NCBI RefSeq assembly: GCF_016809835.1
Contig: NZ_JAFBIL020000005.1
Coordinates: 372,001-436,000, forward strand
Reading direction: 5' to 3'
Length of the DNA stretch: 64,000 nucleotides
From: Massilia soli
GTDB taxonomy: Bacteria > Pseudomonadota > Gammaproteobacteria > Burkholderiales > Burkholderiaceae_D
Positions 12,928-59,521 of the stretch are shown piece after piece. Position 1 is the stretch's first letter. Every line of letters starts with the position of its first letter. The notes beneath the pieces are model-generated. The model did no database searches and had not been told where the DNA came from. It was given only the letters and a program-made list of their open reading frames with translations. The position numbers were made by a program, and so were the translations under genes.

Positions 12928-13015
12928 GCACAGTATCTTAGACGACAAACCTTACAGGGCGCCGGTAGCTAACGCTAGCGGGGCCAACTACGCTGCGAAA
13001 GTAAGAATCCCTCGC

Positions 13016-13030
13016 ATAATAGGGTATTAT
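13016..13030. promoter_or_regulatory. Perfect ATAATA-GGG-TATTAT inverted repeat before the lipoprotein gene
   Basis: This 15-bp AT-rich palindrome lies 36 bases upstream of the lipoprotein start codon. It could be an operator or serve as the -10 region of the promoter. No regulator can be assigned. Confidence 0.35.
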
Positions 13031-13066
13031 TGCCTCAGTGCAATTAATTGATGATAAAGGGGAAAT

Positions 13067-13597
13067 ATGCATACTTTCAGGTTTCACAAAACCGCAATCG
13101 GGTTGGCGGCTGTAGCACTCGTTTTAGGCGGATGCGCAAGCGATCGTCACAGTAACGATACCGCTCGCTATCTTGGTTTTAGCGAGAAAGTTTCCCAAGG
13201 GACCAAATTAATCTATTCCGGAGCGAACCTTACCGAGCACACTCGGTTGATCGCTAAAGCAGAGCTCCGTGGATCGAGGCTAGTAACGGAATCGATGGTG
13301 ACTACGGTCGAACTTGCAGGGTTCAAAAGCGCGATCCTTCGGCGTGATATGTCCTCAGGCGGTTTTGATGGCAACATCGGCCGCGAAGTCGAATTGACAT
13401 TCAGTATCCAGCCTTGTCGCGAAGTTTCCGTTCAAGACAAAGTGCTGACTTGCGCTGATCGCACGGCAGCGCCACCCATCTATATAGCTAGAAGGATTGC
13501 GTTGATTGGAGGGCGCCACATAACTGTCGAGCTCCCCGAAGGAGTGAAGTGGACCTATCAAGTGCTCGATCAGAAATCGCCCTTCCTACTGCAATGA
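13067..13597 (+). CDS. Prophage-encoded lipoprotein, unknown function
   Basis: 176 residues with an N-terminal signal and lipobox LVLGGC followed by ASDRHS, so the mature protein starts at a lipid-modified Cys. Position +2 is Ala, not Asp, favouring the outer membrane. The mature part is mixed beta-type with a Cys pair (QPCREV, LTCADR). AAGGGGAAAT precedes the ATG. The sequence is AT-richer than the structural genes. A lone lipoprotein transcribed apart from the late operon, next to int, is typical of lysogenic-conversion genes such as superinfection exclusion; this role is inferred from position only. Confidence 0.7.
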   Translation: MHTFRFHKTAIGLAAVALVLGGCASDRHSNDTARYLGFSEKVSQGTKLIYSGANLTEHTRLIAKAELRGSRLVTESMVTTVELAGFKSAILRRDMSSGGFDGNIGREVELTFSIQPCREVSVQDKVLTCADRTAAPPIYIARRIALIGGRHITVELPEGVKWTYQVLDQKSPFLLQ

Positions 13598-13729
13598 GGG
13601 TGTGAACAAGCAAAACGTTGCGCAGCGCTCGCCTATCGAGCGCTGTAAAAACGCCATGACTGGGCACTGTCGCCTGGAATCCTCGGATGCTCAATCTGCG
13701 GCAAGGTGCAAGCGGAGTGAGAGGTCGCC

Positions 13730-13842
13730 GCTGCTTGCCAGACAAAGTCGAGGCGGCATATCGGCGTGGAGACTTACTGGAGAAGCGAAAGGTTTTAATG
13801 CAGACGTGGTCGGATTTCTTGGGAGGTGCCAGCAATGCATGA
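13730..13842 (+). pseudogene. C-terminal fragment of a P4-type integrase
   Basis: The frame read to the TGA at 13840-13842 gives LPDKVEAAYRRGDLLEKR then KVLMQTWSDFLGG. This is the last block of P4-type tyrosine integrases, where the Tyr of AYRRGDL is the catalytic nucleophile and the tail EKRxxLMxxWxxFL is conserved. No upstream catalytic domain remains in any frame between 13598 and 13730. The fragment differs from the C-terminus of the intact integrase at 11470-12927, so it derives from another element. Confidence 0.6.
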
Positions 13843-14063
13843 AGATAAGCCACTTCGCGAGTTGCCATCGAGCGGCGATGCGCGCCAGGCGGGACTGGTT
13901 GGCAACCGGGCAAAGACGGTGCGCGGCATTATTCCATTTTTCGCCCGCAACGCTCTAGCGCAAGGTAAAAGCTGGTGAGTTCCCGAAGCCAGTTAAGCTA
14001 TCGGTGAATGTTACGGCCTGGCGCGTCGAAGAAATCAGGGAGTAAATGGCGACAAGGGAGTAG
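13835..14063 (+). pseudogene. Decayed AlpA-family regulator
   Basis: An ATG with GGGAGG upstream overlaps the end of the integrase fragment. The frame reads MHEDKPLRELPSSG...GNRAKTVRGIIPF. After a run of five T (13937-13941), the family sequence continues in the next frame as SPATL, stop, RKVKAGEFPKPVKLS, then TAWRVEEIRE, stop, MATRE. This is a typical AlpA helix-turn-helix body with three lesions: a 1-base insertion in the T run, TAG at 13956-13958 where Tyr is expected, and TAA at 14043-14045 where Trp is usual. AlpA proteins regulate integrase genes of P4-like islands, so this and the preceding fragment form one dead module. Confidence 0.6.
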
Positions 14064-14391
14064 AGGTCTTGGCACATCCGCTGTTTTTTTGAAAACCATG
14101 CTGATGCATTGTCGTGTTCTCCAATGATATCTCTTGTGTTTAGTGGAATGTACGTGAGAGCCGACATTCTCGTCCACAGCCGCCCCCCCCGAACCACGAC
14201 TGTGCCATACCGAGAAGCCCAAATTGCTCCCCATATTTAAGTAAGATCAAACAAACCGCCGTGCCAAGCGCCTATGATGAAGGTGTGAGCGGTAGAGGTA
14301 CGGCTGCATAGCGATCAGTCGCAACGGTGCGGTTTACGTAAGAGGCTGCCTTTTGCATGGGAGACAATTTTGGTGCTAAACTTCGCTCACT
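14064..14391. other. Non-coding stretch without recognised features
   Basis: 328 AT-rich bases between the AlpA remnant and the next small gene. They include a run of eight C at 14183-14190. Minus-strand frames here are short and lack ribosome sites. It presumably carries the promoter of the following two-gene unit, but no clear -35/-10 pair stands out. Confidence 0.5.
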
Positions 14392-14673
14392 ATGCCAATC
14401 TTCCTGACCGTCCCACTCTCAACCCCTGCAGCCAACCTCGACAGCGCGGTACAGCAACACATTGTGACCACGCAACGATATCAACTTCCTGGCGGGCATG
14501 GTTGGCTAATCCACTTTCAAGGAACGACGGTCGAACTCTCGGAAAAGTTAACGATAACTGGCGGACTGAGCAATCCTCTGCTGCCGTCCGTACTGGTAAC
14601 GCTCGTGTCTTCCTACTACGGCCGGGCTCCGACGGACATGTGGGAATGGATTCAGACGAGAGTTGCGACATGA
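14392..14673 (+). CDS. Small hypothetical protein, first of a coupled pair
   Basis: 93 residues, MPIFLTVPLSTPAANLDSAV to TDMWEWIQTRVAT. It looks like a compact alpha/beta domain with several aromatic residues and no signal or membrane segment. The stop overlaps the next ATG (ATGA), so the two products are made together. The family is not recognised. A soluble protein coupled to a membrane-anchored coiled-coil protein, in the accessory region near int, would suit a phage-exclusion or regulatory pair, but nothing in the sequence proves this. Confidence 0.6.
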   Translation: MPIFLTVPLSTPAANLDSAVQQHIVTTQRYQLPGGHGWLIHFQGTTVELSEKLTITGGLSNPLLPSVLVTLVSSYYGRAPTDMWEWIQTRVAT

Positions 14674-15071
14674 ATACCCGACAGAGAGCGCAAGCTGTCA
14701 CTCCGGATAGCGCCCCTCCGCCAGTCCAGACAATACCGCCGTCCATTGGATATGGACATCCCGATCACAACTTTGTCACTGGATTGATGGAAATCCAGAA
14801 GCAATTGGGAGAGATCAATGCGACGCTTGTAACGCTCACAAAGACGGTGGATAGTACGAAGGCGAAAGTTGAACTGCTCAACGAATGGCGCCACAAGATT
14901 GCTGGTGGAATCGTTGTGCTCGGGGTCGTTTGCACATTGATCGGCGTCGGAATTACAAAGTTTTCGAGCTACTTCGAGTTCAAGTCTCCAGAGACGAAAA
15001 CGTCAGCTGTCGCACCCGGATTACCGGTTGAGCAGGCAAATTCAGGCACGGGACGACCAGGTCCGAAATGA
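14670..15071 (+). CDS. Membrane-anchored coiled-coil protein, second of a coupled pair
   Basis: 133 residues. A proline-rich N-terminus (APPPVQTIPPS) leads to an amphipathic coiled-coil (about 40-72, LMEIQKQLGEINATLVTLTK) and a single membrane helix (about 76-95, IAGGIVVLGVVCTLIGVGI). A short polar tail follows. The heptad pattern suggests oligomers at the inner membrane. The start overlaps the stop of the preceding gene. It is not a typical holin because it has one membrane segment and lies away from the lysis cassette on the opposite strand. Unknown function. Confidence 0.65.
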   Translation: MNTRQRAQAVTPDSAPPPVQTIPPSIGYGHPDHNFVTGLMEIQKQLGEINATLVTLTKTVDSTKAKVELLNEWRHKIAGGIVVLGVVCTLIGVGITKFSSYFEFKSPETKTSAVAPGLPVEQANSGTGRPGPK

Positions 15072-15096
15072 GGTTTGTTCGTGGGGTCACGGACAG

Positions 15097-15297
15097 CTAC
15101 AGCCTATGCGACATGCGAGCCAGCTCGGCCGGATGATCCGCCATGACCTGAACCGCCCATTCCTGCTTCTCGACACGCAAGTCGGGATCGTTCTGATCGC
15201 CAATGCGCTCAAAGCCCTGGAAGAGCATTTTGTCGCCGCGGATCATGACGACCTTCGCATGCCACATTAGTGGTAACGGCGTCGTCACCGGGTCCAT
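15097..15297 (-). CDS. Possible small phage protein (uncertain)
   Basis: A 66-residue frame starting MDPVTTPLPLMWHAK, with AAGG seven bases upstream, and ending AELARMSHRL. It overlaps by 89 bases a longer minus frame (15209-15478) whose end reads ILLIENVPVMKVHGPGDD. The two read smoothly into each other, which may mean one gene with a frameshift near 15285. The region 15072-15497 otherwise holds only the intergenic space before the next rightward gene. Function unknown. Confidence 0.4.
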   Translation of the reverse strand: MDPVTTPLPLMWHAKVVMIRGDKMLFQGFERIGDQNDPDLRVEKQEWAVQVMADHPAELARMSHRL

Positions 15298-15497
15298 GCA
15301 CCTTCATCACTGGGACGTTCTCGATCAGCAAGATAGTGACGTGGCCGACGATGCCCTCATCCGCAGCGATCTCATGGTCGCTTTTGCGCTCGCCTTGGCG
15401 GCGGAGGCGTTTGACTTTACTGTACATCGCAAAAGTATAACCGGACATACCACGGCGTTGCCCAGTAAAATATACCATCTGAACTTGCGGGAACTAT

Positions 15498-16073
15498 ATG
15501 GTCGAGGCCACGCTATGGGGAATGTCGAAATCCGAATGGGATTTATACGCAGTTTTTGGCACACTGCTCTCAGCCGTTGCCTCCTTACTCGCAGTTGTTG
15601 TGGCTTTGTATTTAGCAAACCGCTCATCAGGGCACACGGCGTTAGTGACAATCCATCCAATTATTCAGTTAAACGGGCCTAAATATCAAACTCAAGAACG
15701 CTTTATCCAGATTACGGTTGTGAACACTGGCGAGCGACCCATTCGAATCGAGCAGATCGGGTGGCGGGTTGGAATCGCCCGAAAGGCGCACGCGATCCAA
15801 ACATTCGACCAATCATCAAGTGCAAAGTTACCGACAGAGCTTTCGCATGGGCAAAGCGCTCGCTGGTCCATTCCGACTGATCATAGCTCGGGTGCTTCAT
15901 GGGAGTCAGACATCGCCGCGAAGCTTCTGCATGACTCAGGCGTTCTTGGGGTTTGGAGCTTCCGCGCGTTCGTTTACACGTCAGTCGGACGGACATTCTT
16001 TGCGCGGCCCGGTTCAGTCATCAAAGCCCGGCTAACTCAAGCACTCAGAGATTATCGTGATTCAATCAACTAG
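15498..16073 (+). CDS. Single-pass membrane protein with a cytoplasmic or periplasmic beta domain
   Basis: 191 residues. One membrane helix near the N-terminus (about 15-37, LYAVFGTLLSAVASLLAVVV) is followed by a beta-rich domain starting HTALVTIHPIIQLNG, with an Ig-like rhythm (FIQITVVNTGERPIRIEQIGW). GGGAA precedes the ATG; an internal ATG at 15522 is the alternative. It is the last rightward accessory gene before the leftward late operon, so it is probably expressed independently in the lysogen. Similar membrane-plus-beta-domain proteins are common as unnamed prophage cargo. No function is assigned. Confidence 0.62.
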   Translation: MVEATLWGMSKSEWDLYAVFGTLLSAVASLLAVVVALYLANRSSGHTALVTIHPIIQLNGPKYQTQERFIQITVVNTGERPIRIEQIGWRVGIARKAHAIQTFDQSSSAKLPTELSHGQSARWSIPTDHSSGASWESDIAAKLLHDSGVLGVWSFRAFVYTSVGRTFFARPGSVIKARLTQALRDYRDSIN

Positions 16074-16113
16074 CATCTTATCTATCAGTGTAAATAGTCG
16101 GTAAGTTTAGCCA

Positions 16114-42957: not shown

Positions 42958-43281
42958 TCAGCCGATCCAGGCGCCCGTTGCCCGCAGCGCCGCCTCTCGC
43001 TTGCTCTTAGCCTCATGGCAGGGATCGCACAGCACCCACTTGTTATCCGGTGCGTCGCTGCCTCCTGCCCACAGCGGTACCTTGTGGTCCACTGCTGCGC
43101 CTATCGTTGTCTTGCCTTGCTCTGCGCATATCTGGCACAGGTCACAGTCCCTTGCGCGGATAGCGTGGCGATCTCTCACGCCGGCGCTACCTCGCTTGCG
43201 CTCCACTGCTGCGCCGGGTGCTTGCTTGATCCTGGCTGTGCTGAGGGTTGCGAGTCTCGGCCCTAGCGTGCGGAGCTTCAC
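42958..43281 (-). CDS. HNH endonuclease near the packaging site
   Basis: 107 residues from a GTG overlapping the previous stop (GTGA). The zinc ribbon and HNH core are visible: CDLCQICAEQG, VDHKVPLWAGG (His of the first motif), NKWVLCDPCHEAKS. HNH proteins beside terminase genes in HK97-like phages are needed for specific cleavage of packaged DNA, so this is probably a packaging cofactor. Confidence 0.9.
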   Translation of the reverse strand: MKLRTLGPRLATLSTARIKQAPGAAVERKRGSAGVRDRHAIRARDCDLCQICAEQGKTTIGAAVDHKVPLWAGGSDAPDNKWVLCDPCHEAKSKREAALRATGAWIG

Positions 43282-44793: not shown

Positions 44794-45399
44794 ATGAAAT
44801 CACTACTTGCGCTGCTTGCCGCGCTGCTCATGTCGAATGCGAGTGCCGGCGTGGCCTACACATGGCATACGACCTATGCCGCGCAGCATCAGGAGCCGTT
44901 CGAGATCCAGATGTCGATCGTCTTTTCGGATGCGGCCGTGCAGTCAGGCTCTGTGAATCACTGGAGCGATGCTTGCTATTCGCCCGGCAGCCAGATCCAA
45001 TGCAACGATAATGTGCAGAGCCTGTATTTCACTGGCGGCACTCAGCAAGATATCCAGTACATCTTTGGCGATCCGAGCCATACCAGTTCTGGCTTCATGT
45101 TCCTCGAAATCATCGGCTCGTTCGACGGCGCCTATTTCAACGGCAATGTCAGGGTTCGCACCGAATTTACCGAAGTCGTGATCGACGATGGTTTGGTCTA
45201 CTTCATGGAAAGCACCATTCCAGGCGATATTTGTAACCTTGGCGAAGATTGCCAGGGAGATCGCGGCGTGTTCATGGTGGACCAGGAGCTAGCAGAAGTG
45301 CCTGAGCCTTCTTCTATCGCCCTGTTGGGCCTTGCACTCAGCGGCTTCGTGATCGCCCGCCGTCGTTCCACAACCGTCACTACTATTGGAAAAATTTGA
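44794..45399 (+). CDS. PEP-CTERM sorting-domain protein 1 (prophage cargo)
   Basis: 201 residues. An N-terminal signal peptide (MKSLLALLAALLMSNASAG) leads to a beta-rich acidic middle with Cys pairs (DACYSPGSQIQCND, DICNLGEDCQGD). At the C-terminus, VPEPSSIALLGLALSGF (PEP at 170-172), a membrane helix and an Arg cluster (IARRRS) form the exosortase recognition tail; nine extra residues follow the RRR. GGGGAAGAAT precedes the ATG. PEP-CTERM proteins are cut and exported by host exosortase, usually with exopolysaccharide. Rightward orientation, opposite to the late genes, implies expression in the lysogen. Confidence 0.85.
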   Translation: MKSLLALLAALLMSNASAGVAYTWHTTYAAQHQEPFEIQMSIVFSDAAVQSGSVNHWSDACYSPGSQIQCNDNVQSLYFTGGTQQDIQYIFGDPSHTSSGFMFLEIIGSFDGAYFNGNVRVRTEFTEVVIDDGLVYFMESTIPGDICNLGEDCQGDRGVFMVDQELAEVPEPSSIALLGLALSGFVIARRRSTTVTTIGKI

Positions 45400-46022
45400 T
45401 GAAATCGCTATTCGCCCTGTTTATCGCGCTGTTCATGTCGAGCGCTAATGCTGGACCAACATATGTTTGGGAGTATTCATCCGGCGCGCCTGGCGCGCTT
45501 CCCCGTAATCTTCAGCTCATCATAACTTTTGCCGATAACTGGTCGGGGTACTACAAGTCGGTCGCCTGCCCTGTGGACGTTCCTGGCACTATTGAGGACG
45601 TTTGTCCTCCTGATCCCAATTCCGGAATCGAGCGCATCTACGCGTCGCTCAATGGCGTCGAGTGGAATACGATAGAAGTCTTCCCACAATCGAAGCCATA
45701 TTCGGCGCACGTTGATATCGAGATGTCACTTGAGTTCCTGTCGGGTGGTTTGCTCTCGGGCTCGATCTTCATCGACGACTTACATTCGACCTTCATCCTC
45801 GACAGCGTCGGGTCACTGTTCACTGTCCGAGCAGTAGGGCATGATTTCGGCAGCGCCGCGGGAGGATGCGCCGGCCTCGGCGCGTTTGAATGCTCTGGCG
45901 CGACTGGCGTTATGCGACTGGTCGATGACCCGTTCAATGTGCCAGAGCCTTCGTCTATCGCGCTGCTGGGCGTGGCGCTTGGCGGGTTGATGCTGGGGCG
46001 CCGTCGCTCTAAGCGCGCATAA
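45399..46022 (+). CDS. PEP-CTERM sorting-domain protein 2 (prophage cargo)
   Basis: 207 residues. Signal peptide (MKSLFALFIALFMSSANAG), a middle domain beginning PTYVWEYSSGAPG, with three or four Cys, and the tail VPEPSSIALLGVALGGLML followed by GRRRSKRA (PEP at 182-184). The start shares bases with the stop of the first gene (TGATG), so the two are coupled. N-terminus and C-terminus are near-identical in type to protein 1 while the middle has diverged, indicating an old duplication. Confidence 0.86.
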   Translation: MKSLFALFIALFMSSANAGPTYVWEYSSGAPGALPRNLQLIITFADNWSGYYKSVACPVDVPGTIEDVCPPDPNSGIERIYASLNGVEWNTIEVFPQSKPYSAHVDIEMSLEFLSGGLLSGSIFIDDLHSTFILDSVGSLFTVRAVGHDFGSAAGGCAGLGAFECSGATGVMRLVDDPFNVPEPSSIALLGVALGGLMLGRRRSKRA

Positions 46023-46029
46023 AGAAAAG

Positions 46030-46054
46030 CCCGCTGACCTTTCGGAAGCGGGCC
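46030..46054. terminator. Bidirectional hairpin after the PEP-CTERM genes
   Basis: GCCCGCT (46030-46036) pairs with AGCGGGC (46048-46054). The minus-strand side is followed by TTTTCTTTA, so it works best for leftward transcripts; it also closes the rightward pair 8 bases after the stop. Confidence 0.65.
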
Positions 46055-46079
46055 ATTCAATCGATATTATCACCGTATA

Positions 46080-46295
46080 TCAGTCGGCGTTTCGACCACT
46101 CCAGATTCCGACCGTGAGCGCTGCGGCAATTGCGTCGTATTCAGATGGTACGGCTCCGTCACGCAGGGCCGCTTGTTTCGCAAGCTGCTTTCTAACCTGC
46201 TTAAATTGGGCAACAATCGCCGCCGCATAACGTGCTTGACTCTCTGCACCAGCGTCATTTATTTCGCCAGGACCGTCAAAATTCGAACCACCCAT
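46080..46295 (-). CDS. Small phage protein downstream of the late promoter
   Basis: 71 residues: MGGSNFDGPGEINDAGAESQ, then ARYAAAIVAQFKQVRKQLAK. Strong GAGGAG site before the ATG. Helical, soluble, unrecognised. It is the first gene after the putative tR'-like terminator at 46384-46408. Confidence 0.6.
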   Translation of the reverse strand: MGGSNFDGPGEINDAGAESQARYAAAIVAQFKQVRKQLAKQAALRDGAVPSEYDAIAAALTVGIWSGRNAD

Positions 46296-46383
46296 TTCAG
46301 CTCCTCAACGTTATCGGTGAGGCCATTATACGGCTTGCAGTCAGCGCACCGCGTGCAATTTTTATCCCAACTCTAGGCGTAAA

Positions 46384-46408
46384 AAAGCCCGGATCTTAGC
46401 CGGGCTTT
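46384..46408 (-). terminator. tR'-like terminator downstream of Q
   Basis: AAAGCCCGG (46384-46392) pairs with CCGGGCTTT (46400-46408); on the minus strand six T follow. It begins about 60 bases downstream of the predicted start of the late promoter. Confidence 0.8.
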
Positions 46409-46476
46409 AGTAATGCATGACGCCGTCGGCGTGATAGCAAGATTAACTTCCTCGTACTGATGAGCAAGCGTACCTA

Positions 46477-46505
46477 AATATACTCTTAACCATAAAGGCG
46501 GTCAA
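46477..46505 (-). promoter_or_regulatory. Late promoter (pR'-like)
   Basis: Minus strand TTGACC (46505-46500), 17 bases, TATATT (46482-46477): a near-consensus sigma-70 promoter whose -35 overlaps the stop codon of the Q-like gene. Predicted start about 46470, directed leftward into the late genes, with a terminator 60-90 bases on. Confidence 0.72.
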
Positions 46506-46912
46506 GCAACTTTTTTCGAGACCGTTCTTTGTGCTTCAGCTCGATCCTGCGCCTCGATTTCAAGGTCGTGCAAGCCATCCATCACGGCCAGGTGCAGAGC
46601 GTGCAGTCGGTTATACACGGTGACTTCGCTGCAGCGGAGCCCGCTTGCAATTCGCTTCACCGTTAAACTGCCGGCCAAGTAGAACCATTGAGCCACCTCG
46701 AACTGTTGGGGCGATTTTGCGCGGATTCGCACAATGACCAATTCGATCTCTTCCTGAGCCGCCGTTTCAGTGATCGGTCCAGCACAAGCACCAACATGAA
46801 TTTGGACGAGCGAGCAGTAGTTCGATTTGGACGGGTAGCCTAAGCCGCCATCGTCTCGGCGCTTGCACCAAGTCGACCACTCGATAAGACGTTTGTTGAT
46901 GTACTCGATCAC
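46502..46912 (-). CDS. Q-like late antitermination protein
   Basis: 136 residues from a GTG with GAGGAA upstream: MIEYINKRLIEWSTWCKRRD, DGGLGYPSKSNYCSLVQIHV, a region with two helices and QFEVAQWFYLAGSLTVKRIA then a helix-turn-helix-like GLRCSEVTVYNRLHALH. This is the arrangement of Q-type antiterminators of lambdoid phages. The pR'-like promoter and terminator lie at its 3' end, as in lambda. It should modify RNA polymerase to read through late terminators. Confidence 0.75.
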   Translation of the reverse strand: MIEYINKRLIEWSTWCKRRDDGGLGYPSKSNYCSLVQIHVGACAGPITETAAQEEIELVIVRIRAKSPQQFEVAQWFYLAGSLTVKRIASGLRCSEVTVYNRLHALHLAVMDGLHDLEIEAQDRAEAQRTVSKKVA

Positions 46913-47112
46913 TGTTTCCTCGCTTGCGTTTGCTGTTAGGTTTTGACTTGGCTTTTGGTGTGGCCGTTGTTCTTGGGGTTGAATCTTGTTTTTCCTGGTG
47001 CTCGGGGTTGCAGTAGCCTCTCCTCTTCTCTTCTCTTCTGAGATGCACGTCAGTTGCTAGCGCACTCTTCTGAGAATAGACATTGAGACGCACGTCAATT
47101 GCTTGCAGCTTG
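46913..47112 (-). pseudogene. Degenerate region between the replication and Q genes
   Basis: After the stop of the 103-residue replication gene, minus frames continue as short pieces (RLNVYSQKSALATDVHLRRE, then NPEHQEKQDSTPRTTATP with PKAKSKPNSKRKRG). They are polar and Lys/Pro-rich like the disordered middle of phage replication proteins. Two near-copies of GACGTGCATCTCA and TTGCTAGCGC-type sequence are visible. It looks like the decayed continuation of the upstream gene, but a mere spacer cannot be excluded. Confidence 0.4.
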
Positions 47113-47424
47113 CTAGCGTGCTGCTAGCACTGGCTTAGGCCAGTCCGGTGAGATTAAGAAGCCCGCTTGAACGAGGGCATTCAAGTCCAAGTCTTTGCAG
47201 GACAACTTCTTCTCTAGGAACGGAATGTCGCTGGGGATCTGGCCGTCGTTCTGGCTCGCGTAGACCCACAGCAGCATTAGATGGGCCTTGGCTACGTCAG
47301 ACAGCGAGCAGAACGCGTAGTCGTCGAGAATGGCCCGGTGCAGCTTTATCCAGGGCGGATTGCGCTTGCCGTAGTGCTGGAATTCCTCCCAGTTTTTGAC
47401 GGTCAAGAACTGGACTGTGCTCAT
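47113..47424 (-). CDS. N-terminal part of a phage replication-type protein
   Basis: 103 residues. STVQFLTVKNWEEFQHYGKR, then NPPWIKLHRAILDDYAFCSL and AKAHLMLLWVYASQNDGQIP is the well-known N-terminal winged-helix-like domain of phage replisome organisers/replication proteins, which usually continue for another 100-200 residues. Here the frame stops shortly after LVQAGFLISPDW. It is either a naturally short version or a truncated gene. The ATG overlaps the primase-like stop. Confidence 0.65.
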   Translation of the reverse strand: MSTVQFLTVKNWEEFQHYGKRNPPWIKLHRAILDDYAFCSLSDVAKAHLMLLWVYASQNDGQIPSDIPFLEKKLSCKDLDLNALVQAGFLISPDWPKPVLAAR

Positions 47425-48347
47425 GGCTTTCCCCTCATGCGAACTTCAATGATCAGGCGGCACAGCTCAACGATGCCGGCGCGCTGATGCAGGTCGTTCG
47501 CATCCTCGCCGACAACCTCGGACATGCAGTACGGCAGGCCTGTGTCCTTCGCCGCCAACTCTCCGGTTTGCGTCACATCGTTGTCGGCAAAGACAAACGC
47601 GCGCCCCTTAGCCAGGGACCCGACATAGGACAGGTTGTAAGCGTTAAAGCAAACCGCCACAGACGCGTTTAACCGAAGTCTGCGCAGCGCCATCTCGATG
47701 GAGATGCCGGTTGCCAGCCCCTCACAGAAAAACGTCTCCTGAGCCCGCTGGTTGCCCAGCCAGAGCACGCCGCCCTTCGCACGCGTCCCCCACTGCATCT
47801 CCTTATGCCACCGGTGCTCGTCTGCGCGCCAGTCGATCCGTTGGCACCCGACCAGCTCGCCATCGAGGAACTCGTACATCGGCGCGATCAGAGTCGGACC
47901 GCGCACCAGCGCCAGCGCGTTGGGCAGGCCTTTCGATATCAAGTACCCATGTGTCGATGGCTTGCATTGAGCGAGGTGGCGCTTCGTCATCGCGACAGCG
48001 GCGGCGAAACCACGTTTCTTTCGCGCCTCTTCCGTAAGGTCTTCACGCGGGACGCCGCCGGGCCTCGGGATCAGCGGCTCGGCGCCAAACTCGGCATAGC
48101 GCCAACCGTTCGCTGCAGCTTCGCGGTACAGGGTGCCGATGCGGATCTGGCCGGCCGAGCCGATACTGCGCCAGACGGCAAGGGCGGCGTTACGGCAGTA
48201 GGAGGTCGCACCCTTACTCCAATCGTTCCAAAGATCAAATGCGTCCTCGCCGAACTCGGACTTCAAGGCCATCGCCGCACGCACCCAGGTTGCGCGCTCA
48301 ACCGGAGCGATGGCATTGAGGGCGCTGACTGCTTTTGCATAGCTCAT
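47421..48347 (-). CDS. Primase-like protein (PriCT-2 plus TOPRIM)
   Basis: 308 residues from ATG 48347 with GGAG seven bases upstream. The N-terminal PriCT-2-like domain has AVSALNAIAPVERATWVRAA, the middle domain is of the phage/plasmid primase type (KPSTHGYLISKGLPNALALV), and the C-terminal TOPRIM domain has FCEGLATGISIEMAL and FVFADNDVT. No helicase domain follows, so it may prime replication with a host helicase. The frame extends back to 48404 but overlaps the Rha gene. Confidence 0.85.
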   Translation of the reverse strand: MSYAKAVSALNAIAPVERATWVRAAMALKSEFGEDAFDLWNDWSKGATSYCRNAALAVWRSIGSAGQIRIGTLYREAAANGWRYAEFGAEPLIPRPGGVPREDLTEEARKKRGFAAAVAMTKRHLAQCKPSTHGYLISKGLPNALALVRGPTLIAPMYEFLDGELVGCQRIDWRADEHRWHKEMQWGTRAKGGVLWLGNQRAQETFFCEGLATGISIEMALRRLRLNASVAVCFNAYNLSYVGSLAKGRAFVFADNDVTQTGELAAKDTGLPYCMSEVVGEDANDLHQRAGIVELCRLIIEVRMRGKP

Positions 48348-49072
48348 TTGGCGACTCCTTCGCGCTGGAGAAGCTGCCACTTGGCGAACTCGCCCGCCAC
48401 CCATCGGATGCCCTTGGCCGTGAACTTTGTGCTGTTGAACGCGTGGCCACTATCGGCGGTGCCAGCCTTGACAGCGAAACGCCCCGTGTCAAGATGCTGG
48501 GAAAATGGAACCCACTCACCACCGAGGCGATACATGATCTTGCTCTCTTCCAGGAAGTCTCTGAAGGTAGGCTCCTTGATCCCCAGAAGTTTCGCCACCT
48601 GTCGGAATCCCTTGAGACCAGTCGAGTCGGCGTACTTCTCGACGAATGCGACTGCTGGCGCAGCGGCTACTAGCAGCTCAGCCTGGGCGGCGATGAGTTC
48701 CTGCTGGTCGGCGGCGAGGCGGAGTGCTTCGGCGAAGCTTGATGGGATGGCGACGGGCTGCACCGATTCCAGCTCCCGCCAGCGGGCGACCACCTTGCGG
48801 CGAAGTGGAGCGCTGTATCCGGTGAGGAGAGTTTCAGTCAGCTCGCGATCGAGGGCAAATTCAGCCTGCTCTCGGTTCATGCTGTCGAAATAGATGCGTC
48901 CGAATCTGGACACATCTTCTCCGAGGTCGCGCAGCATCGATTCGATGTCGCGCTTCACATGCTGATGCTGCTTTCCGGTTAGCTCCGCAATCTCGCGGCT
49001 CGTCATGATCGAGGGTTGTGTGGCGGTTCCAGCCACGATCGACAAGCCGCCTCCTACGTTGTGGTTCAACAT
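48344..49072 (-). CDS. Rha/KilAC-type antirepressor
   Basis: 242 residues. The N-terminal Rha domain has IMTSREIAELTGKQHQHVKR and IESMLRDLGEDVSRFGRIY. A coiled linker (LRLAADQQELIAAQAELLVA) leads to a KilAC-type C-terminal DNA-binding domain (GLKGFRQVAKLLGIKEPTFR, EESKIMYRLGGEWVPFSQH). Such proteins counter repressors or regulate early lytic genes. It lies downstream of the AlpA gene in the leftward early operon. Confidence 0.87.
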   Translation of the reverse strand: MLNHNVGGGLSIVAGTATQPSIMTSREIAELTGKQHQHVKRDIESMLRDLGEDVSRFGRIYFDSMNREQAEFALDRELTETLLTGYSAPLRRKVVARWRELESVQPVAIPSSFAEALRLAADQQELIAAQAELLVAAAPAVAFVEKYADSTGLKGFRQVAKLLGIKEPTFRDFLEESKIMYRLGGEWVPFSQHLDTGRFAVKAGTADSGHAFNSTKFTAKGIRWVAGEFAKWQLLQREGVAK

Positions 49073-49081
49073 AGCTGCTCC

Positions 49082-49300
49082 TCAAGCGGACTTGGATTCG
49101 ATCAGCTTGCGAATGTCCTCGGCTCTCCAGACAGTCACGCCAGGGGACAGCTTCACACCAGCAGGATAGTGCCCCACTTTGATTCCGTGATACCACGCAG
49201 TGCGGCCCACTGGGATGAGCGGAGGAATTGGAGGTACTGCTTTCGGATTGCCGAGGATTTGGCGGATTCGCAGGAATCCAGTTTCAGGAAGAGCGTTCAT
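49082..49300 (-). CDS. AlpA-family helix-turn-helix regulator
   Basis: 72 residues from ATG 49300: MNALPETGFLRIRQILGNPK, then IPVGRTAWYHGIKVGHYPAG, VKLSPGVTVWRAEDIRKLIE. The pattern R-T-W-x3-I-x2-G-x-YPAxVKLSPxxTxWRxEDI is AlpA/excisionase-type winged helix. An ATG at 49312 is also possible. It is the intact relative of the decayed AlpA gene at 13835-14063. Probably controls early genes or excision. Confidence 0.82.
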   Translation of the reverse strand: MNALPETGFLRIRQILGNPKAVPPIPPLIPVGRTAWYHGIKVGHYPAGVKLSPGVTVWRAEDIRKLIESKSA

Positions 49301-49412
49301 GTTCGCATCCATTCGAAGTGACCGTAATTGGCCGATGGATGCACTATGAAAGAGTAAAGCCGGCAATAATATACCGAGCGCCAGTCAACGCTAGACGAAC
49401 GCCACTGGTCGA

Positions 49413-50216
49413 CTAGCGACCGGTAGCGCTCGTTAGCTTTCTGTCGGCAAGTAGCCATTCATAAATCGTTGTTTGCGCTCGCTGCTCGCTTATAGCAGTC
49501 TTGAAGAATGATGCCTTTTCAATCGCTAACGGGGCTAGAAGGAATGACGCCCGGTAGGGGGACGGAAATGACTTTGACTTGTACTGTTCGACCACCCATT
49601 CCCGGAGATTTGTCATCGGTAAGTTTGCGATATCTGCGCCCTTTTTACTATGCGCGCGACGCTGCATTTTTTCTGCTGCGATCCCAGTTTCCCATCCAGT
49701 AAAAAAAGTACATGAACCCATAGAACCCGCAGCAATAGCCATCAACTCAATCGATCGACGGCCATCGCCTTGCTTGGCTGCAAAGGCGGCCTCGTCAATT
49801 TTGCGGAGCGCATGCGCAGCCAAGACTTGAATGCTACCTAGCCTAGGTGAAATCGCAGCAAGCTTCTCCCAATCCGGTCCGATGTCGCGGGCGAGCCAGT
49901 CATCAAGGACGGTATCTTCGCCCTCCATCGCGATGACGCCATCCGGCGTGCATGCCGCTCGATTTTTTTCGTTGTCTTCAACCGTGCCATCCTGGATCGC
50001 GCCCTGCCACCAACAGGCCGAATTTTCTGCACCCTTCTCAAGTTCCACACTCGCGAAATCGATAAGAGCTAGAACATCCTCGTAATACCAATCTGACGAA
50101 TTGGGTGGCTGGCACCGCACTAACGCACCGTGCGCAAGTCGTTGGATATTTCGATCTGAATTCTCGAAAAAGCGATCCCCGCTAGCAGCTTCTTCGATGC
50201 ATAAAAACTTGTACAT
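49413..50216 (-). CDS. Early-region protein of unknown function
   Basis: 267 residues, MYKFLCIEEAASGDRFFENS. A helical C-terminal half includes AAHALRKIDEAAFAAKQGDG and a degenerate helix (TTIYEWLLADRKLTSATG). No membrane segment. The start codon directly follows a run of eight G, which must serve as ribosome site; an in-frame continuation further upstream exists if the run were nine or six G. GC content is lower than in neighbours. No family recognised. It occupies the place where early regulatory or accessory genes are expected. Confidence 0.65.
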   Translation of the reverse strand: MYKFLCIEEAASGDRFFENSDRNIQRLAHGALVRCQPPNSSDWYYEDVLALIDFASVELEKGAENSACWWQGAIQDGTVEDNEKNRAACTPDGVIAMEGEDTVLDDWLARDIGPDWEKLAAISPRLGSIQVLAAHALRKIDEAAFAAKQGDGRRSIELMAIAAGSMGSCTFFTGWETGIAAEKMQRRAHSKKGADIANLPMTNLREWVVEQYKSKSFPSPYRASFLLAPLAIEKASFFKTAISEQRAQTTIYEWLLADRKLTSATGR

Positions 50217-50321
50217 GCCCCCCCCGTTGGATTTACGCTTACTGTTAGCGGTAGTGCATCCAGAGCTTCCGATTGTATCTGAGCTGGGACCGCCACACTA
50301 AGCGACGGTCTCAGTATTTCG

Positions 50322-50648
50322 TTATTCGCCCAAGGGAAGGCGGGAATAGTCGACTCTCTGCCGTCGCCAGATCGCATGCCCCTCGTCGACGCCCGCAACG
50401 AATGCATCAGCAGCCGCGCAACCGGCCACGTACGGCGCGGGTAGTCGCCGCCCGATGAGATGGAACTCCAGCGCCGCACGACAGCCTTCTTGATACTCTG
50501 GACTTCGCTCGGCCCGGCCAGGGAAAAACGCGATGTCCATCAGGCGGTCAACCTTGAGGAGTGCCGCGCGGAGCGACGCGGGCTCCGCTGCTGCACGCGA
50601 AGCGCCCGGTCCGCTAGTGGTCGGAGCCACCATGCTCATGGCATTCAT
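50322..50648 (-). CDS. Early-region hypothetical protein
   Basis: 108 residues from ATG 50648 (overlaps previous stop): MNAMSMVAPTTSGPGASRAA, then SPEYQEGCRAALEFHLIGRR, CAAADAFVAGVDEGHAIWRR. The C-terminal pattern is seen in small proteins of Burkholderiales prophages of unknown function. Soluble. The 105 bases between it and the next gene (50217-50321) hold no recognised feature other than the G tract. Confidence 0.6.
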   Translation of the reverse strand: MNAMSMVAPTTSGPGASRAAAEPASLRAALLKVDRLMDIAFFPGRAERSPEYQEGCRAALEFHLIGRRLPAPYVAGCAAADAFVAGVDEGHAIWRRQRVDYSRLPLGE

Positions 50649-51151
50649 GACACGGCTCCGCTGGTTTCGCCGGCAGGACCGATATAGTGCCGATAATGCG
50701 TAACAGCGCCGTCCGGAAAACGGGCGGCGTTGCTCTGAGCATGCCAACTCCCCTCCTCGGTATCGAAGAACGCCGTGCACGGCAATCCGGTCTCGTCGTC
50801 CCACGCGATGACCACGCGGAGATTTTCAGGCGGCCGGTCTTCGCTGACAGCCTCCCAAGATTCGGCGAGGTCCAGATGCTTACTCAGGGCATTCTTTGAC
50901 CCTGCCTGTCGTGCGACTTCGTCCATCGCCAATGAATTGCCCAGCACCGTTGCTAGTATCTGCTTTGCGCACTTGCTGAAGCAGTCGATGGCATCGAGCC
51001 TTTCCTGGAAATCACCGCCCGTCTCGTCGATGCTTTTCGTCACAGAGTCGAGCAACACCCGGAGACGGAGGCAGCCCATTTCAACATCGCCCGCTAAATT
51101 CCTGATCTGGCTTGCCGCTCCCCCCTTGGCAGTGCTCGTAGCGGCGCTCAT
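50645..51151 (-). CDS. Early-region hypothetical protein
   Basis: 168 residues. An N-terminal helical half (SQIRNLAGDVEMGCLRLRVL, FQERLDAIDCFSKCAKQILA) is followed by a C-terminal beta part (PENLRVVIAWDDETGLPCTA, FFDTEEGSWHAQSNAARFPD, THYRHYIGP), the latter resembling a small DUF551-like domain common in phages. ATGA overlaps at both ends. Function unknown. Confidence 0.6.
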   Translation of the reverse strand: MSAATSTAKGGAASQIRNLAGDVEMGCLRLRVLLDSVTKSIDETGGDFQERLDAIDCFSKCAKQILATVLGNSLAMDEVARQAGSKNALSKHLDLAESWEAVSEDRPPENLRVVIAWDDETGLPCTAFFDTEEGSWHAQSNAARFPDGAVTHYRHYIGPAGETSGAVS

Positions 51152-51588
51152 TCTGCACCGCCGGCTGATTGGCTGAGGGCGAACGCGGCGTCATTCGTGA
51201 GTTCGTGAACGGCATCCAGCGTGTCCGCCAGTTGATTGATCAGGATGCCAAGCCGAATAAGTGTGATGCCGGGGATTCCCGCATCGTCCGCGACCTGGCC
51301 GCTCAGTGACACCAAGCTGCCAATTGCGGAGAGTCCATCGGCGATCGACTGAATTTCATTTTCGGCGTGCGATTGCACAGCCATTAGACGGAGGCGATCG
51401 TCGGCGTTGGCCGCGCGACTGGGCAATCCGTCTTTGAGAAGGTGGAAGAGTTCGCTGGGGGCGCGGTTGGCGTCGTTAAAGTATGGGTTGCTTGCCAACG
51501 ACAACGGGTTCGGCGTTGCGATTTTTTCAGGGCGCGCCGAAAGATCCGAAATTGCTTGCAGGCTTGGCGATTTCATTTTATTATCCAT
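51148..51588 (-). CDS. Early-region hypothetical protein
   Basis: 146 residues from ATG 51588, which has AGGAG nine bases upstream (the ATG at 51597 overlaps that site). LSARPEKIATPNPLSLASNP is followed by a long helical region (ADDRLRLMAVQSHAENEIQS, LIRLGILINQLADTLDAVHE). Its 5' leader is opposite to the candidate antisense RNA at 51591-51721, which would cover its ribosome site. Confidence 0.6.
   Translation of the reverse strand: MDNKMKSPSLQAISDLSARPEKIATPNPLSLASNPYFNDANRAPSELFHLLKDGLPSRAANADDRLRLMAVQSHAENEIQSIADGLSAIGSLVSLSGQVADDAGIPGITLIRLGILINQLADTLDAVHELTNDAAFALSQSAGGAE
51556..51584 (+). promoter_or_regulatory. Candidate rightward promoter of a small antisense RNA
   Basis: TTGCAG (51556-51561), 17 bases, TATTAT (51579-51584). 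It lies inside the start of the leftward gene 51148-51588 and points toward the terminator at 51695-51721. Confidence 0.45.
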
Positions 51589-51590
51589 TT

Positions 51591-51721
51591 TGTGCATCTC
51601 CTAAGGGTGTGACAATCCATCAGCCGTCTTAGATGTTCAAGCATCCTAGACAACAGCTAACCTGGTTCCGCCAGGCCGGTTGTGCTGACATAGAGGGCGA
51701 CCTGCAAGTCGCCCTTTTTTT
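51591..51721 (+). ncRNA. Candidate 130-nt small RNA, antisense to an early leader
   Basis: Bounded by the promoter-like pair at 51556-51584 and a strong plus-strand terminator at 51695-51721. No rightward gene lies upstream for over 5 kb that would need this terminator. The RNA would pair with the ribosome site of the leftward early gene 51148-51588. It resembles the logic of lambda oop RNA, but sequence and position differ. Expression is inferred. Confidence 0.4.
51695..51721 (+). terminator. Strong plus-strand intrinsic terminator
   Basis: GGGCGAC-CTGCAA-GTCGCCC followed by seven T. On the minus strand the hairpin is followed by TCTATG, so only rightward transcripts are terminated. Confidence 0.85.
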
Positions 51722-51745
51722 ACGTCAGGATCTTTCCAGTTAAGT

Positions 51746-51928
51746 TCACTGCATTTCCGCAGCCTCCTCCTCGGCTAAACACTTCTCAATCATCATCAAC
51801 AACTCGCCGTTCATAGAGCGACGGTTGGCGATCGCCATCTCTTTTATTCGATTCCGCATGCCACCTGGCAGCCGAAGAATGAACTGTTCCTTGTCAGCGA
51901 CTTGTTGCTCAGAATTCTGAAGTGCCAT
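51746..51928 (-). CDS. Arc/Mnt-type ribbon-helix-helix protein (leftward)
   Basis: 60 residues with GGAGAG before the ATG. KEQFILRLPGGMRNRIKEMA and NRRSMNGELLMMIEKCLAEE match the Arc/Mnt fold (strand QFILRLP, two helices, RSMNxEL). It opens the leftward early operon and faces the other ribbon-helix-helix gene. As first early gene it is probably the Cro-like or Arc-like side of the switch. Confidence 0.85.
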   Translation of the reverse strand: MALQNSEQQVADKEQFILRLPGGMRNRIKEMAIANRRSMNGELLMMIEKCLAEEEAAEMQ

Positions 51929-51960
51929 GTTGCTCTCCGTGATTTGCGGTTGATCAATCC

Positions 51961-52027
51961 ATGCTACTCGCAAAGTGCGATCATCGCAAGTGCATAGCAT
52001 TGAAATATCGCACTTTGCTAGTATCAT
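51961..52027. promoter_or_regulatory. Divergent promoter-operator region of the ribbon-helix-helix switch
   Basis: GCAAAGTGCGAT (51970-51981) and its exact inverted copy ATCGCACTTTGC (52007-52018) lie 25 bases apart. Rightward promoter: TTGAAA (52000-52005), 16 bases, TATCAT (52022-52027), with the second operator copy in its spacer. Leftward promoter: TTGCGA (51989-51984), 17 bases, TAGCAT (51966-51961), with the first copy in its spacer. Binding at either site would block the corresponding promoter. Confidence 0.7.
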
Positions 52028-52033
52028 CGCCGA

Positions 52034-52411
52034 ATGGAAAAAAAGTCGCCACCCAGCAAAAGCGCAGAACAGTTCATCATCCGATTTCCAGATGGTATGC
52101 GCGATCAGATCGCTGCCGCTGCTAAGGCGCACGGGCGATCTATGAACGCGGAACTCGTCGCGCGCCTGGTTAAGTCGTTTAATCCGATCGAGGATGAGGA
52201 CGACGTGCTGCGTGCAGTTCACGCAATCATCCGATACTCGGCAAAATTCAATGTGGATGTCACGGTCAACTTCTCAGGCTCACCCGAGAGCACTGTGGCT
52301 AAGGCCATCCGAAATGGAAGTCTGCCCGCTGATGCAACCCCGGACGATCTATCGGAGCCAAAAGTAGAAAAAGCTCGCACTCGTGGCGTCCCGAGAAAGC
52401 CTAAACGTTGA
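52034..52411 (+). CDS. Arc-type ribbon-helix-helix repressor (rightward), candidate prophage repressor
   Basis: 125 residues. SAEQFIIRFPDGMRDQIAAA and HGRSMNAELVARLVKSFNP form the Arc domain. A C-terminal half (about 55-125), possibly for oligomerisation or partner binding, ends in a basic tail (VPRKPKR). No ribosome site precedes the ATG and the predicted transcription start falls at or next to it, suggesting a leaderless mRNA, as for lambda cI from PRM. No CI/LexA-type repressor exists elsewhere in the prophage, so this is the best candidate for the lysogeny repressor. Confidence 0.8.
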   Translation: MEKKSPPSKSAEQFIIRFPDGMRDQIAAAAKAHGRSMNAELVARLVKSFNPIEDEDDVLRAVHAIIRYSAKFNVDVTVNFSGSPESTVAKAIRNGSLPADATPDDLSEPKVEKARTRGVPRKPKR

Positions 52412-52430
52412 ATGCGCGAAGGGAGATGTC

Positions 52431-52922
52431 TTGAGCTACGGGATCAGCTGGGTGAAGCTTGAGAAATACGCGGAGATTACGGGGGACTCTGTGGACGCTG
52501 TTATGGCTCGGCGCAAGTCCGGAAAGTGGCTAGACGGCGAGCAATGCAAAATCGTCGACGGAAGGCTTTGGGTCAACCTGCGCTCGGTTGAAGAGTGGAT
52601 TGACGGCGGTGGGCGCGCGAATCGCACGGCCGCTCAGTCTGGTGAAGAGGAGAGCCGGAACGACGTGCGTGCGCCCGCACCGGTCGCTTCGATGGCAAAG
52701 GATGCACTGGTACCAGGGCTTCGGAAGGAAGAAGTGCTGTGGGATATAGCGACCATAGCGCTGTACCTTAAGCGCGAGCCACAGGTGGTTCGCGAGCGCA
52801 TGGCATGCCTGCCGTCTTTCCCAAAATCGATACGGTTGCCAACGAAGACCGGGAGAGCGCAGCCGCTGTTTTTGGCCGAAGAGGTGATCGCCTGGACGAA
52901 GAAATACAAGGACAAGAACTAA
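52431..52922 (+). CDS. Excisionase-like protein with two DNA-binding domains
   Basis: About 163 residues from a TTG with GGGAG six bases upstream. The N-terminal domain (ISWVKLEKYAEITGDSVDAV, MARRKSGKWLDGEQCKIVDG, LWVNLRSVEEWI) is the pattern of phage Xis-like proteins. The C-terminal domain (LWDIATIALYLKREPQVVRE, FPKSIRLPTKTGRAQPLFL, EEVIAWTKKY) is a second AlpA/MerR-like winged helix. Position next to attR puts it just upstream of int in the circular form. An alternative GTG at 52383 would overlap the repressor gene. It probably controls excision and perhaps int expression. Confidence 0.75.
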   Translation: MSYGISWVKLEKYAEITGDSVDAVMARRKSGKWLDGEQCKIVDGRLWVNLRSVEEWIDGGGRANRTAAQSGEEESRNDVRAPAPVASMAKDALVPGLRKEEVLWDIATIALYLKREPQVVRERMACLPSFPKSIRLPTKTGRAQPLFLAEEVIAWTKKYKDKN

Positions 52923-52972
52923 AGCCAGAGCTTCATCAGGAGGTTCTAGCGATACTTTTCTGCGAAAGCGCT

Positions 52973-53224
52973 CTAGTCATCCCAGGGTAGGCCTACAGCG
53001 CCCTCTACAGGCTTGTAGTTAGCGCCGACCACGATCTTGCCGGCAGACGAATCGGAGCGCTTTGCAGTCTCCTGCGGAAGCTTGTCAGTTCCGTCTATCC
53101 ATTTCGCAAACGGCGTCGCCAGGACGCCTGCAGGTACGTACCATTTTTTCTTTCCGGCATCCCACTTCGCGCCTAGCGCACGGGCAGCGTCCTTCTCAGC
53201 GTATGGAACATTTAGCAATATCAT
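52973..53224 (-). CDS. DUF5710-domain protein
   Basis: 83 residues. MILLNVPYAEKDAARALGAK WDAGKKKWYVP is the DUF5710 motif (LNVPYAEKDxAKxLGAxWDxxxKxWYVP), commonly fused to nucleases, primases and mobile-element proteins and thought to bind nucleic acid. Here it stands alone on the minus strand between xis and attR. Ends GLPWDD. Role unknown. Confidence 0.82.
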   Translation of the reverse strand: MILLNVPYAEKDAARALGAKWDAGKKKWYVPAGVLATPFAKWIDGTDKLPQETAKRSDSSAGKIVVGANYKPVEGAVGLPWDD

Positions 53225-53375
53225 CTGTTACTCCCGTCTGGTGACGGCGAATTGTAGACTAGCTTCATCCCTCGTGGGGCAATACGAACGATGGTAGACC
53301 AACCGTTCTGGGATCGATCGTCGCGGGGCATTAGATTTTTTCTTACCAAAGTTCTTACCGATCCGGCACCACATG

Positions 53376-53400
53376 AAAAAGGCCAGCGCACCGGCTGGCC
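53376..53400 (-). terminator. Phage-supplied terminator of tRNA-Pro
   Basis: Minus strand GGCCAGC-CGGTGC-GCTGGCC followed by TTTTTC. It lies 17 bases past the tRNA 3' end inside the prophage and imitates the host terminator at 11206-11225. Confidence 0.8.
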
Positions 53401-53415
53401 TAAGTCATTGAATCC

Positions 53416-53464
53416 ATTGGTCGGGGCGAGAAGATTCGAACTTCCGACCCCTTGCACCCCATGC
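53416..53464. other. attR (49-bp core, inside the intact tRNA-Pro)
   Basis: Identical to 11241-11289. With the host 5' half it rebuilds a complete tRNA-Pro gene, so integration leaves the tRNA functional. Confidence 0.92.
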
Positions 53465-53494
53465 AAGTACGCTACCAGGCTGCGCTACGCCCCG
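53418..53494 (-). tRNA. tRNA-Pro (anticodon GGG)
   Basis: 77 bases with CCA encoded. Acceptor CGGGGCG/CGCCCCG, D arm GCGC-AGCCTGGTA-GCGT, anticodon stem CTTGC/GCAAG with loop ATGGGGT (anticodon GGG), T arm GGAAG-TTCGAAT-CTTCT. It is intact; the 3' part is phage-derived. Confidence 0.95.
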
Positions 53495-53698
53495 ACGAGT
53501 TGCGAATTATATCAGAGCATTTTCCACTTTTGCCAGCCCAGGACGGCGGCAGTTCCCCCCTGTCAGCGCGATGTTTGCGCAAACGCAAACTTCCACGTCC
53601 ACTAACCGAACCGGATCGTACCGAACGGCCTATTTTTTGCCATTCCGATAATATCGGCCTTAACTAGTTACGGCCGGCATAGAGCGCCGGTGCTCTAT

Positions 53699-59461: not shown

Positions 59462-59521
59462 AAAATCGGGGACAGACCACCATTTTGGAAGATTCCAAAA
59501 TGGTGGTCTGTCCCCGATTTT
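59462..59521. repeat. Perfect 29-bp inverted repeat (REP-like palindrome)
   Basis: AAAATCGGGGACAGACCACC plus ATTTTGGAA (59462-59490) is followed by two bases and its exact complement (59493-59521). The GGGGACAGACC core recalls REP elements that accompany REP-associated transposases. A third partial copy, GATTTTGGAA, follows. It lies between the hom stop and the XRE gene start in a 184-base gap and could also act as transcription terminator for leftward reading. Confidence 0.75.

Follow-up and report, generated by a model that had tools for sequence, protein, structure and literature searches.

In a prophage of Massilia soli, the primary immunity region has plausibly been replaced by an immI-type pair of Arc-family repressors of the P22 arc/mnt kind, a reading to which we assign a probability of roughly 0.57. 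Judged by its sequence, the layout of the locus is that of the known P22 arc/mnt (immI) region, and what would be novel is its primary position. This reading draws on the anatomy of the locus, on an operator geometry and a recognition code that recur across the family, on a -10 element repeatedly found close to the start of the long gene, and on a leader RNA whose covariation and linkage to the pair can be followed in relatives.

The window, the whole 64-kb stretch of M. soli DNA that was analyzed, contains a prophage of ∼42 kb (11241-53464) bounded by 49-bp direct repeats. Its ends and main genes are as follows.
11241-11289, no strand: attL, 49-bp direct repeat (repeat search)
11605-12927, + strand: integrase adjoining attL (phrog_1, E 1.2e-40)
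47421-48347, - strand: primase-like gene, downstream in the leftward early operon (phrog_2249, DNA primase)
48344-49072, - strand: Ant-type antirepressor gene with Rha and KilAC domains (PF09669, E 5e-12; PF03374, E 4.4e-20)
51746-51928, - strand: ArcL, short Arc-family protein of 60 aa, first gene of the leftward early operon, Arc-equivalent (Pfam PF03869, E 1.4e-12)
52034-52411, + strand: ArcR, long Arc-family protein of 125 aa, Mnt-equivalent, candidate maintenance repressor (Pfam PF03869, E 8.5e-15)
52431-52922, + strand: excisionase-like protein with a TTG start, 3′ of ArcR (phrog_9668, E 1.8e-7)
53416-53464, no strand: attR, 49-bp direct repeat overlapping tRNA-Pro (53418-53494)

On the circular phage genome the integrase is the neighbor of the Arc switch, which has the leftward early operon on its other side. 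The Ant-type gene, which also matched phrog_63 (anti-repressor Ant, E 1.6e-58), is a member of ArcL's leftward operon and immediately precedes the primase-like gene, in which PriCT_2 scored above the Pfam cut-off and Toprim_3 under it. Its presence makes an earlier note on this DNA, which had described a switch "made wholly of ribbon-helix-helix proteins," too strong on this point. A homologue of the excisionase-like protein adjoins the long repressor gene in some relatives (L254, L255, L257, L258, and L260), so that repressor and excisionase may share an mRNA, which would be odd for a lysogen. Elsewhere in the prophage we observed two adjacent PEP-CTERM proteins (44794-45399 and 45396-46022, + strand) that oppose the direction of the early operon and are possibly a surface-protein cargo that would require a host exosortase. 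A stretch of lower G+C (12930-16110) between the integrase and leftward lysis-type genes holds ORFs without assignment and is probably cargo. An HNH endonuclease gene (42958-43281, - strand) lies beside the late genes and is possibly the one ORF of 104 scanned that matched an IscB model (E 1.5e-8).

Both genes of the pair encode members of the Arc ribbon-helix-helix family, with 47.6 bits for ArcL and 54.8 bits for ArcR against the curated PF03869 cut-off of 20.4. This agrees with the two Arc-type genes that had been noted here previously; these had been said to face each other, whereas they are in fact divergent, back to back. The A2 profile, part of the evidence for ArcR, matched chains of AmrZ, Arc, and Mnt. 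AmrZ of Pseudomonas (PDB 3qoq, E 1.3e-10) was the best match among solved chains, and the predicted structure of ArcR was weak (mean pLDDT 68.5, pTM 0.33). The reading heads are QFILR in ArcL and QFIIR in ArcR, both of the form Q..I..R. A Shine-Dalgarno-like GGAG stands 6 nt upstream of the ArcL ATG, and Pfam scans of ten neighboring genes found no toxin family. The leftward protein had been proposed to drive early lysis; as activation this is unlikely, because ArcL resembles Arc, has 60 aa, and shares its base-reading residues with ArcR, so that a role like that of P22 Arc or lambda Cro is more likely.

The resemblance to P22 immI covers the whole region. In both, a long (Mnt) and a short (Arc) ribbon-helix-helix repressor are divergent, odd 4-N5-4 dyads lie between the genes (here operators predicted by sequence), an RNA element follows arc, and an ant-type gene belongs to the short gene's operon. 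In P22, ant is directly 3′ of arc, whereas here it lies in the same orientation ∼2.7 kb downstream, several genes away. Here, in addition, the reading residues of ArcL and ArcR are identical, the long gene appears to be leaderless, and the RNA covariation favors the sense strand. While P22 has a separate CI/C2-type repressor, searches for HTH_3 and Peptidase_S24 found neither family in this prophage. Lastly, immI of P22 is a secondary region in the late operon (PMC8022706, PMC2629481), whereas the present pair lies between the early operon and attR/integrase. Paracoccus phage vB_PyeM_Pyei1 has arc(short)-ant(Rha/KilAC) divergent from arc(long), as here, but the pair sits among tail genes, ant directly follows arc, and the record has HTH_3 over the cut-off.

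To place the pair among its relatives, we used protein and profile searches that yielded at least 252 loci, some overlapping, 250 of them with an Arc-domain ORF. The same pair in related prophages, which the earlier note had suggested looking for, was found as a divergent Arc-family pair in 172 of these 250, P22-type arc/mnt included; the loci were gathered by Arc likeness, and pair counts are not prevalences. The 175 pairs comprised 117 distinct ones, or 105 once near-copies were removed. The median number of residues from the reading head onward was 50 for the shorter partner and 113 for the longer; "short" and "long" are set by length alone and may err where the lengths are close.

We then asked which other repressors accompany the pair. 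Six-frame searches found no HTH_3 or Peptidase_S24 match within the prophage, and the nearest HTH_3 lies at window position 59175, beyond the att sites. No CI-type family was matched by 104 of the 106 ORFs of the non-structural regions with Pfam and NCBIfam (at least 50/55 aa; 25/26 families listed), with weak matches to HTH_Mga, HTH_11, HTH_17, and HTH_22 among the 104 (E 0.001-0.04), and PHROG searches of single prophage proteins found no repressor. The structural region was searched for HTH_3 and S24 in six frames only. A hidden CI-type repressor was therefore dropped as a candidate after the six-frame, Pfam, NCBIfam, and PHROG searches, which upholds the earlier statement that the 42 kb holds no CI/LexA-like repressor. 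From its sequence, the Arc pair is the only immunity candidate found in this prophage, and ArcR is likely the maintenance repressor.

The relatives give a mixed picture. Among 43 records with the pair, picked mostly for length, possibly fragments, and including six P22-type controls, 38 had an HTH_3 match (CI/Cro-type) at E ≤ 0.01, 29 of them over the cut-off; all six controls were positive. The HTH_3 search found no match in five records, namely G296, a prophage of M. polaris and the closest relative, and G307, G313, G314, and G317. HTH_3 was found within 5 kb of the leader RNA described below in at least 3 of 16 RNA matches (G089, G192, and one of G138) and within 20 kb in at least three further ones (G125, G170, and G243), contig ends restricting the range. 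In G125 and G170 it is a 257-aa protein that is present away from any RNA match in G138 and G192. The module thus exists both with and without a CI-type gene, and sole immunity by the pair could hold only here and in a few others. The KilAC domain was found in 19 of the 43 records, in 17 of them above the cut-off. For 102 of the 105 regions we obtained the longest ORF that begins no more than 900 nt 3′ of the short gene; 100 of these ORFs were scanned with Pfam and, with our own Ant added, gave a set of 101, a duplicate and one ORF at a locus edge being left out. This set contained ANT (18), Rha (15), ORF6N (8), integrase (8), P22_AR_N (7), KilA-N (7), Bro-N (6), and AntA (4).

These counts bear directly on the possibility that the pair is an ordinary secondary immunity region, an immI moron that governs only ant and its operon while another repressor, unrecognized or lost, holds lysogeny. 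The frequent HTH_3 matches in the pair records, the secondary status of immI in P22 (PMC8022706), and the Ant-type gene all fit this explanation. We nevertheless consider it unlikely, given that neither HTH_3 nor S24 was found in the prophage itself, that the HTH_3 search found none in the record of its closest relative, and that the pair stands between the early operon and the integrase instead of within the late operon. For comparison, mEpimmI phages are reported to use a CI-like repressor (PMC11893012). In the open-licence literature, outside which most subscription papers lie, we found no Arc/Mnt pair as sole immunity and no leaderless ribbon-helix-helix repressor.

If ArcR maintains lysogeny, it would do so from the control elements between the two genes, which are the following.
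51961-51989, - strand: leftward promoter, TTGCGA-17-TAGCAT, 8/12 consensus bases (read by eye, under the scanner threshold)
51968-51980, no strand: predicted operator 1, TCGC-AAAGT-GCGA, 13-bp dyad in the leftward promoter spacer
51984-51987, + strand: extra TCGC half-site overlapping the leftward -35
52000-52027, + strand: rightward promoter, TTGAAA-16-TATCAT, 10/12 consensus bases, 6 nt to the ATG (promoter scan)
52008-52020, no strand: predicted operator 2, TCGC-ACTTT-GCTA, one mismatch, in the rightward promoter spacer

The two promoters mirror each other around 51994, with one 13-bp dyad in each spacer, and promoter-like matches here are no commoner than in shuffles (2 vs 2.5 expected). 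The 64 kb contain a single + strand copy of GCAAAGTGCGAT (51970-51981) and a single copy of its inverse (52007-52018). Exact 12-base inverted pairs with starts within 80 bp of each other are present at three places in the window: the switch, 30497, and 59462-59521, a long intergenic hairpin with 29-bp arms in the host flank. The earlier observation of a motif and its exact inverse in the opposing spacers therefore stands, better framed as the two 13-bp dyads; operator 1 is the sole perfect TCGC-N5-GCGA in the 42-kb prophage.

This geometry is shared across the family. In the 105 inter-domain regions, perfect dyads with 4-base arms were enriched at odd spacings of 1 to 9 with a peak at 5, where 201 were counted against 72.6 expected (z 14.7) and at least one was present in 89 of the 105 regions. 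Even spacings of 0 to 8 fell below expectation, and spacings of 11 or more showed a smaller enrichment, even ones included. The P22 arc/mnt regions carried TAGA-N5-TCTA in 3/3 and GTCC-N5-GGAC in 2/3, the known Arc and Mnt operators of P22.

The arms of these dyads track the reading head of the long protein. We classed long proteins by the first and third residues of the head and counted the regions scoring at least 2 for the class half-site. TGGC was found in 18/18 regions with K-I heads and 4/4 with K-V, TGTC in 10/15 with K-M, TGCC in 12/15 with R-I, and TAGC in 7/9 with Q-M. Q-I heads were divided between TCTC (3/5) and TCGC (2/5, our pair being one of the two), and Q-V heads had no single half-site (TCGC 5/20, TAGC 4/20). 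A pairwise test was confined to 58 of the 105 regions, those in which both heads could be read and the site was clear, with P22-type regions excluded. Half-sites agreed at 0.86 for the same long head (218 comparisons) vs 0.06 for different long heads (1435), and at 0.94 for the same long head when the long cores were at most 40% identical. When ranked among all 256 half-sites by leave-one-out prediction from training rows at most 60% identical, the class half-site came first in 56/88 regions with ties allowed (permuted mean 15.9, maximum 25) and in 47/88 without a tie, as compared to 22/59 by the short head. An independent check comes from AmrZ of Pseudomonas (PDB 3qoq), a host regulator unlike the phage switch here: in the published AmrZ-DNA structure, Lys18, Val20, and Arg22 read TGGC-AAAAC-GCC (PMC3325190), and this TGGC-N5-GCC site and the K-V-R residues fit the code and agree with its K-V class. 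Applied to our own pair, the code fails: it predicts TCTC, which ranks 24th in the region where TCGC ranks first, the Q-I class having five members. These results suggest that the half-site goes with two residues in the long protein, with our own class Q-I not cleanly predicted. In the open-licence literature, which leaves most subscription papers outside, no recognition code for phage Arc/Mnt proteins was found.

An operator that follows the short protein could be rejected, as agreement was 0.84 for the same long and different short heads (179 comparisons) vs 0.10 for different long and the same short heads (48). Short heads by themselves gave an agreement of 0.47 vs a permuted-label maximum of 0.32, which we read as a correlation with the long heads because of the fall to 0.10. 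This raises the question of whether ArcR alone owns the operator, while ArcL binds elsewhere or forms mixed dimers with ArcR, so that there is no competition for a shared site. That the half-site tracks the long and not the short head across the family would fit, as would the difference between short and long heads in 76 of 92 pairs, which makes competition for one operator at best the trait of a subset that includes our pair. We find this doubtful for the present locus, where the heads are the same at both base-reading positions, as in 16 of the 92 pairs (our own included), a count above all of 2000 permutations (mean 4.6, maximum 12).

The leftward transcript carries a further conserved element, located between ArcL and the next gene.
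51583-51716, - strand: structured leader RNA with three hairpins (115.8 bits with model R1, our own sequence among its six seeds)
51148-51588, - strand: gene immediately 3′ of the leader RNA, no known function (ORF; homologues in several related loci, no PHROG match)

The earlier note, whose account of divergent pair, dyads, and leaderless look is borne out, had not seen this RNA. The six-seed model has 24 pairs, 12 with changes on both sides. It matched 12 of 84 sources (the window and 83 of the 252 loci) at E < 2e-16, seeds and copies included, all others having E 0.25 or worse. In 294 genomes of the host's family there were 16 matches in 12 genomes, and 15 of the 16 have a divergent Arc pair nearby whose short gene is the closer to the RNA, at a distance of up to ∼110 nt in 13 cases and of ∼0.7 kb in two (L261 and L266); the exception, L264, is the weakest match. 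Five of the 16 are seeds or near-copies, so that new support for the linkage amounts to 10 of 11 loci. In a 17-row alignment, both sides show changes in 20 of the 24 pairs, and pairing holds in 90.1% of cells, as compared to 73.7% after shuffling and no more than 47.8% after sliding. The model itself guided this alignment; predicting the fold afresh from it gives 21/24. At E ≤ 1 over 46000-53600, Rfam 15 matched the tRNA alone and not the leader RNA. In about half of the 16 loci (L253-L268) the protein after the RNA starts with MN..T.VNT while the rest of the protein differs, which suggests a recombination joint or an RNA signal that extends into the coding part.

P22 sar lies between arc and the next gene, as the RNA does here. 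This place recalls both sar and the ant leader (PMC2629481). We at first favored the reading that a Sar-like antisense RNA is made from the + strand, ends at a hairpin with a T-run at ∼51692-51724, and silences the gene that follows arcL, in the way that ant is controlled by sar in P22. Its position, a terminator-like site on the + strand at 51692-51717, the stronger + strand fold (51597-51724, -50.1 kcal/mol, z -5.16, against z -1.77 for leftward 51584-51714), and helix 1, which alone leans to the + strand (0 G-U vs 7 A-C), speak for it. On the leftward strand, however, 26 G-U wobbles were counted vs 11 A-C, the equivalent of a G-U on the opposite strand, and helix 3 had 25 vs 3. The + strand T-run after hairpin 1 is strong in our own locus only among 16 rows, and terminator-like sites towards the long gene were found in 13/104 regions (3/104 in the opposite direction) vs 7 and 5 in a control stretch. 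With the T-run not kept in relatives and the wobbles favoring the sense strand, we lowered the antisense RNA from main reading to an improbable one, which the sequences of the relatives do not support. As a sense-strand leader, the RNA might act by antitermination or translational control.

The message of arcR is apparently leaderless, as proposed earlier for a rightward transcript without a ribosome site. Its -10 ends 6 nt ahead of the ATG, which places the expected +1 on the A of the ATG, the Shine-Dalgarno score is 0, and an earlier start is precluded by an in-frame TAG 15 nt upstream. The pattern recurs in relatives: of 101 long genes, 40 have a TANNNT whose end lies 5-9 nt upstream of the start codon (200 shuffles: mean 10.4, maximum 18) vs 8 of 95 short genes, and the gap is 6 or 7 nt in 33 of the 101. 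Shine-Dalgarno sequences precede 22/101 long vs 73/95 short genes; start codons were picked by a rule favoring ATG and Shine-Dalgarno, which biases against the leaderless count. The P22 mnt-type genes are not leaderless, their best promoter match lying 27-31 nt away. That arcR is instead transcribed from an upstream promoter start or translated via an unusual ribosome site is very unlikely, for although 39/101 long genes have neither a Shine-Dalgarno nor a near -10 and promoter-like matches in the stretch are no commoner than in shuffles, the promoter has 10/12 consensus bases with +1 expected on the A of the ATG, the 6- or 7-nt gap recurs, and none of the 40 long genes with a near -10 has a Shine-Dalgarno.

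For a switch in which the pair carries primary immunity, we infer binding, repression, and immunity, together with the parts played by ArcL, Ant, and the RNA, as follows. During lysogeny, ArcR translated from a leaderless mRNA would bind the 13-bp dyads in both promoter spacers, shutting the leftward early operon (arcL, leader RNA, unknown genes, ant, and primase) and limiting its own synthesis. Upon a drop in ArcR, the leftward promoter would fire, and ArcL, having the same base-reading residues, would occupy the same operators and keep arcR off. Later, like Arc of P22 and Cro of lambda, ArcL would damp the operon that encodes it, while the leader RNA would tune downstream expression through the next gene's translation start or the passage of RNA polymerase. 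Such a switch would resemble lambda cI/cro in its two divergent repressors of the same predicted DNA specificity, shared sites, and leaderless maintenance message; it would differ in its fold, in having no RecA-cleavable domain, and in operators within the promoter spacers.

Several observations weigh against the main reading. HTH_3 accompanies the pair in most records, so that sole immunity would be an exception, and lies within 5 kb of some RNA matches; an unrecognized repressor could hide among the unknown genes. The code misses our own site and gives no single half-site for Q-V heads, operator 2 contains a mismatch, 58 of the 105 regions entered the pairwise test, and mnt-type genes of P22 are not leaderless. 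We offer only tentatively the broader proposal of a class of temperate phages in which an Arc/Mnt pair replaces CI/Cro as sole immunity, with a leaderless long repressor, a short one of the same specificity, and a conserved early-leader RNA as antiterminator or timing element, and in which the code defines immunity groups.

Interpretations of phage immunity usually start from CI-type repressors; in this prophage, a small fold may carry the switch without a detectable CI. The leader RNA adds a well-supported structure, absent from Rfam, that is tied to the Arc switch. The DNA reading of this small fold depends on few strand residues, and the code would make a long-studied model fold, that of Arc and Mnt, partly predictive in a way that binding assays can test. 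The code also suggests that immunity groups could be assigned from sequence and, if the broader proposal is true, superinfection immunity among these phages would be predictable from the two-residue code of the long protein.
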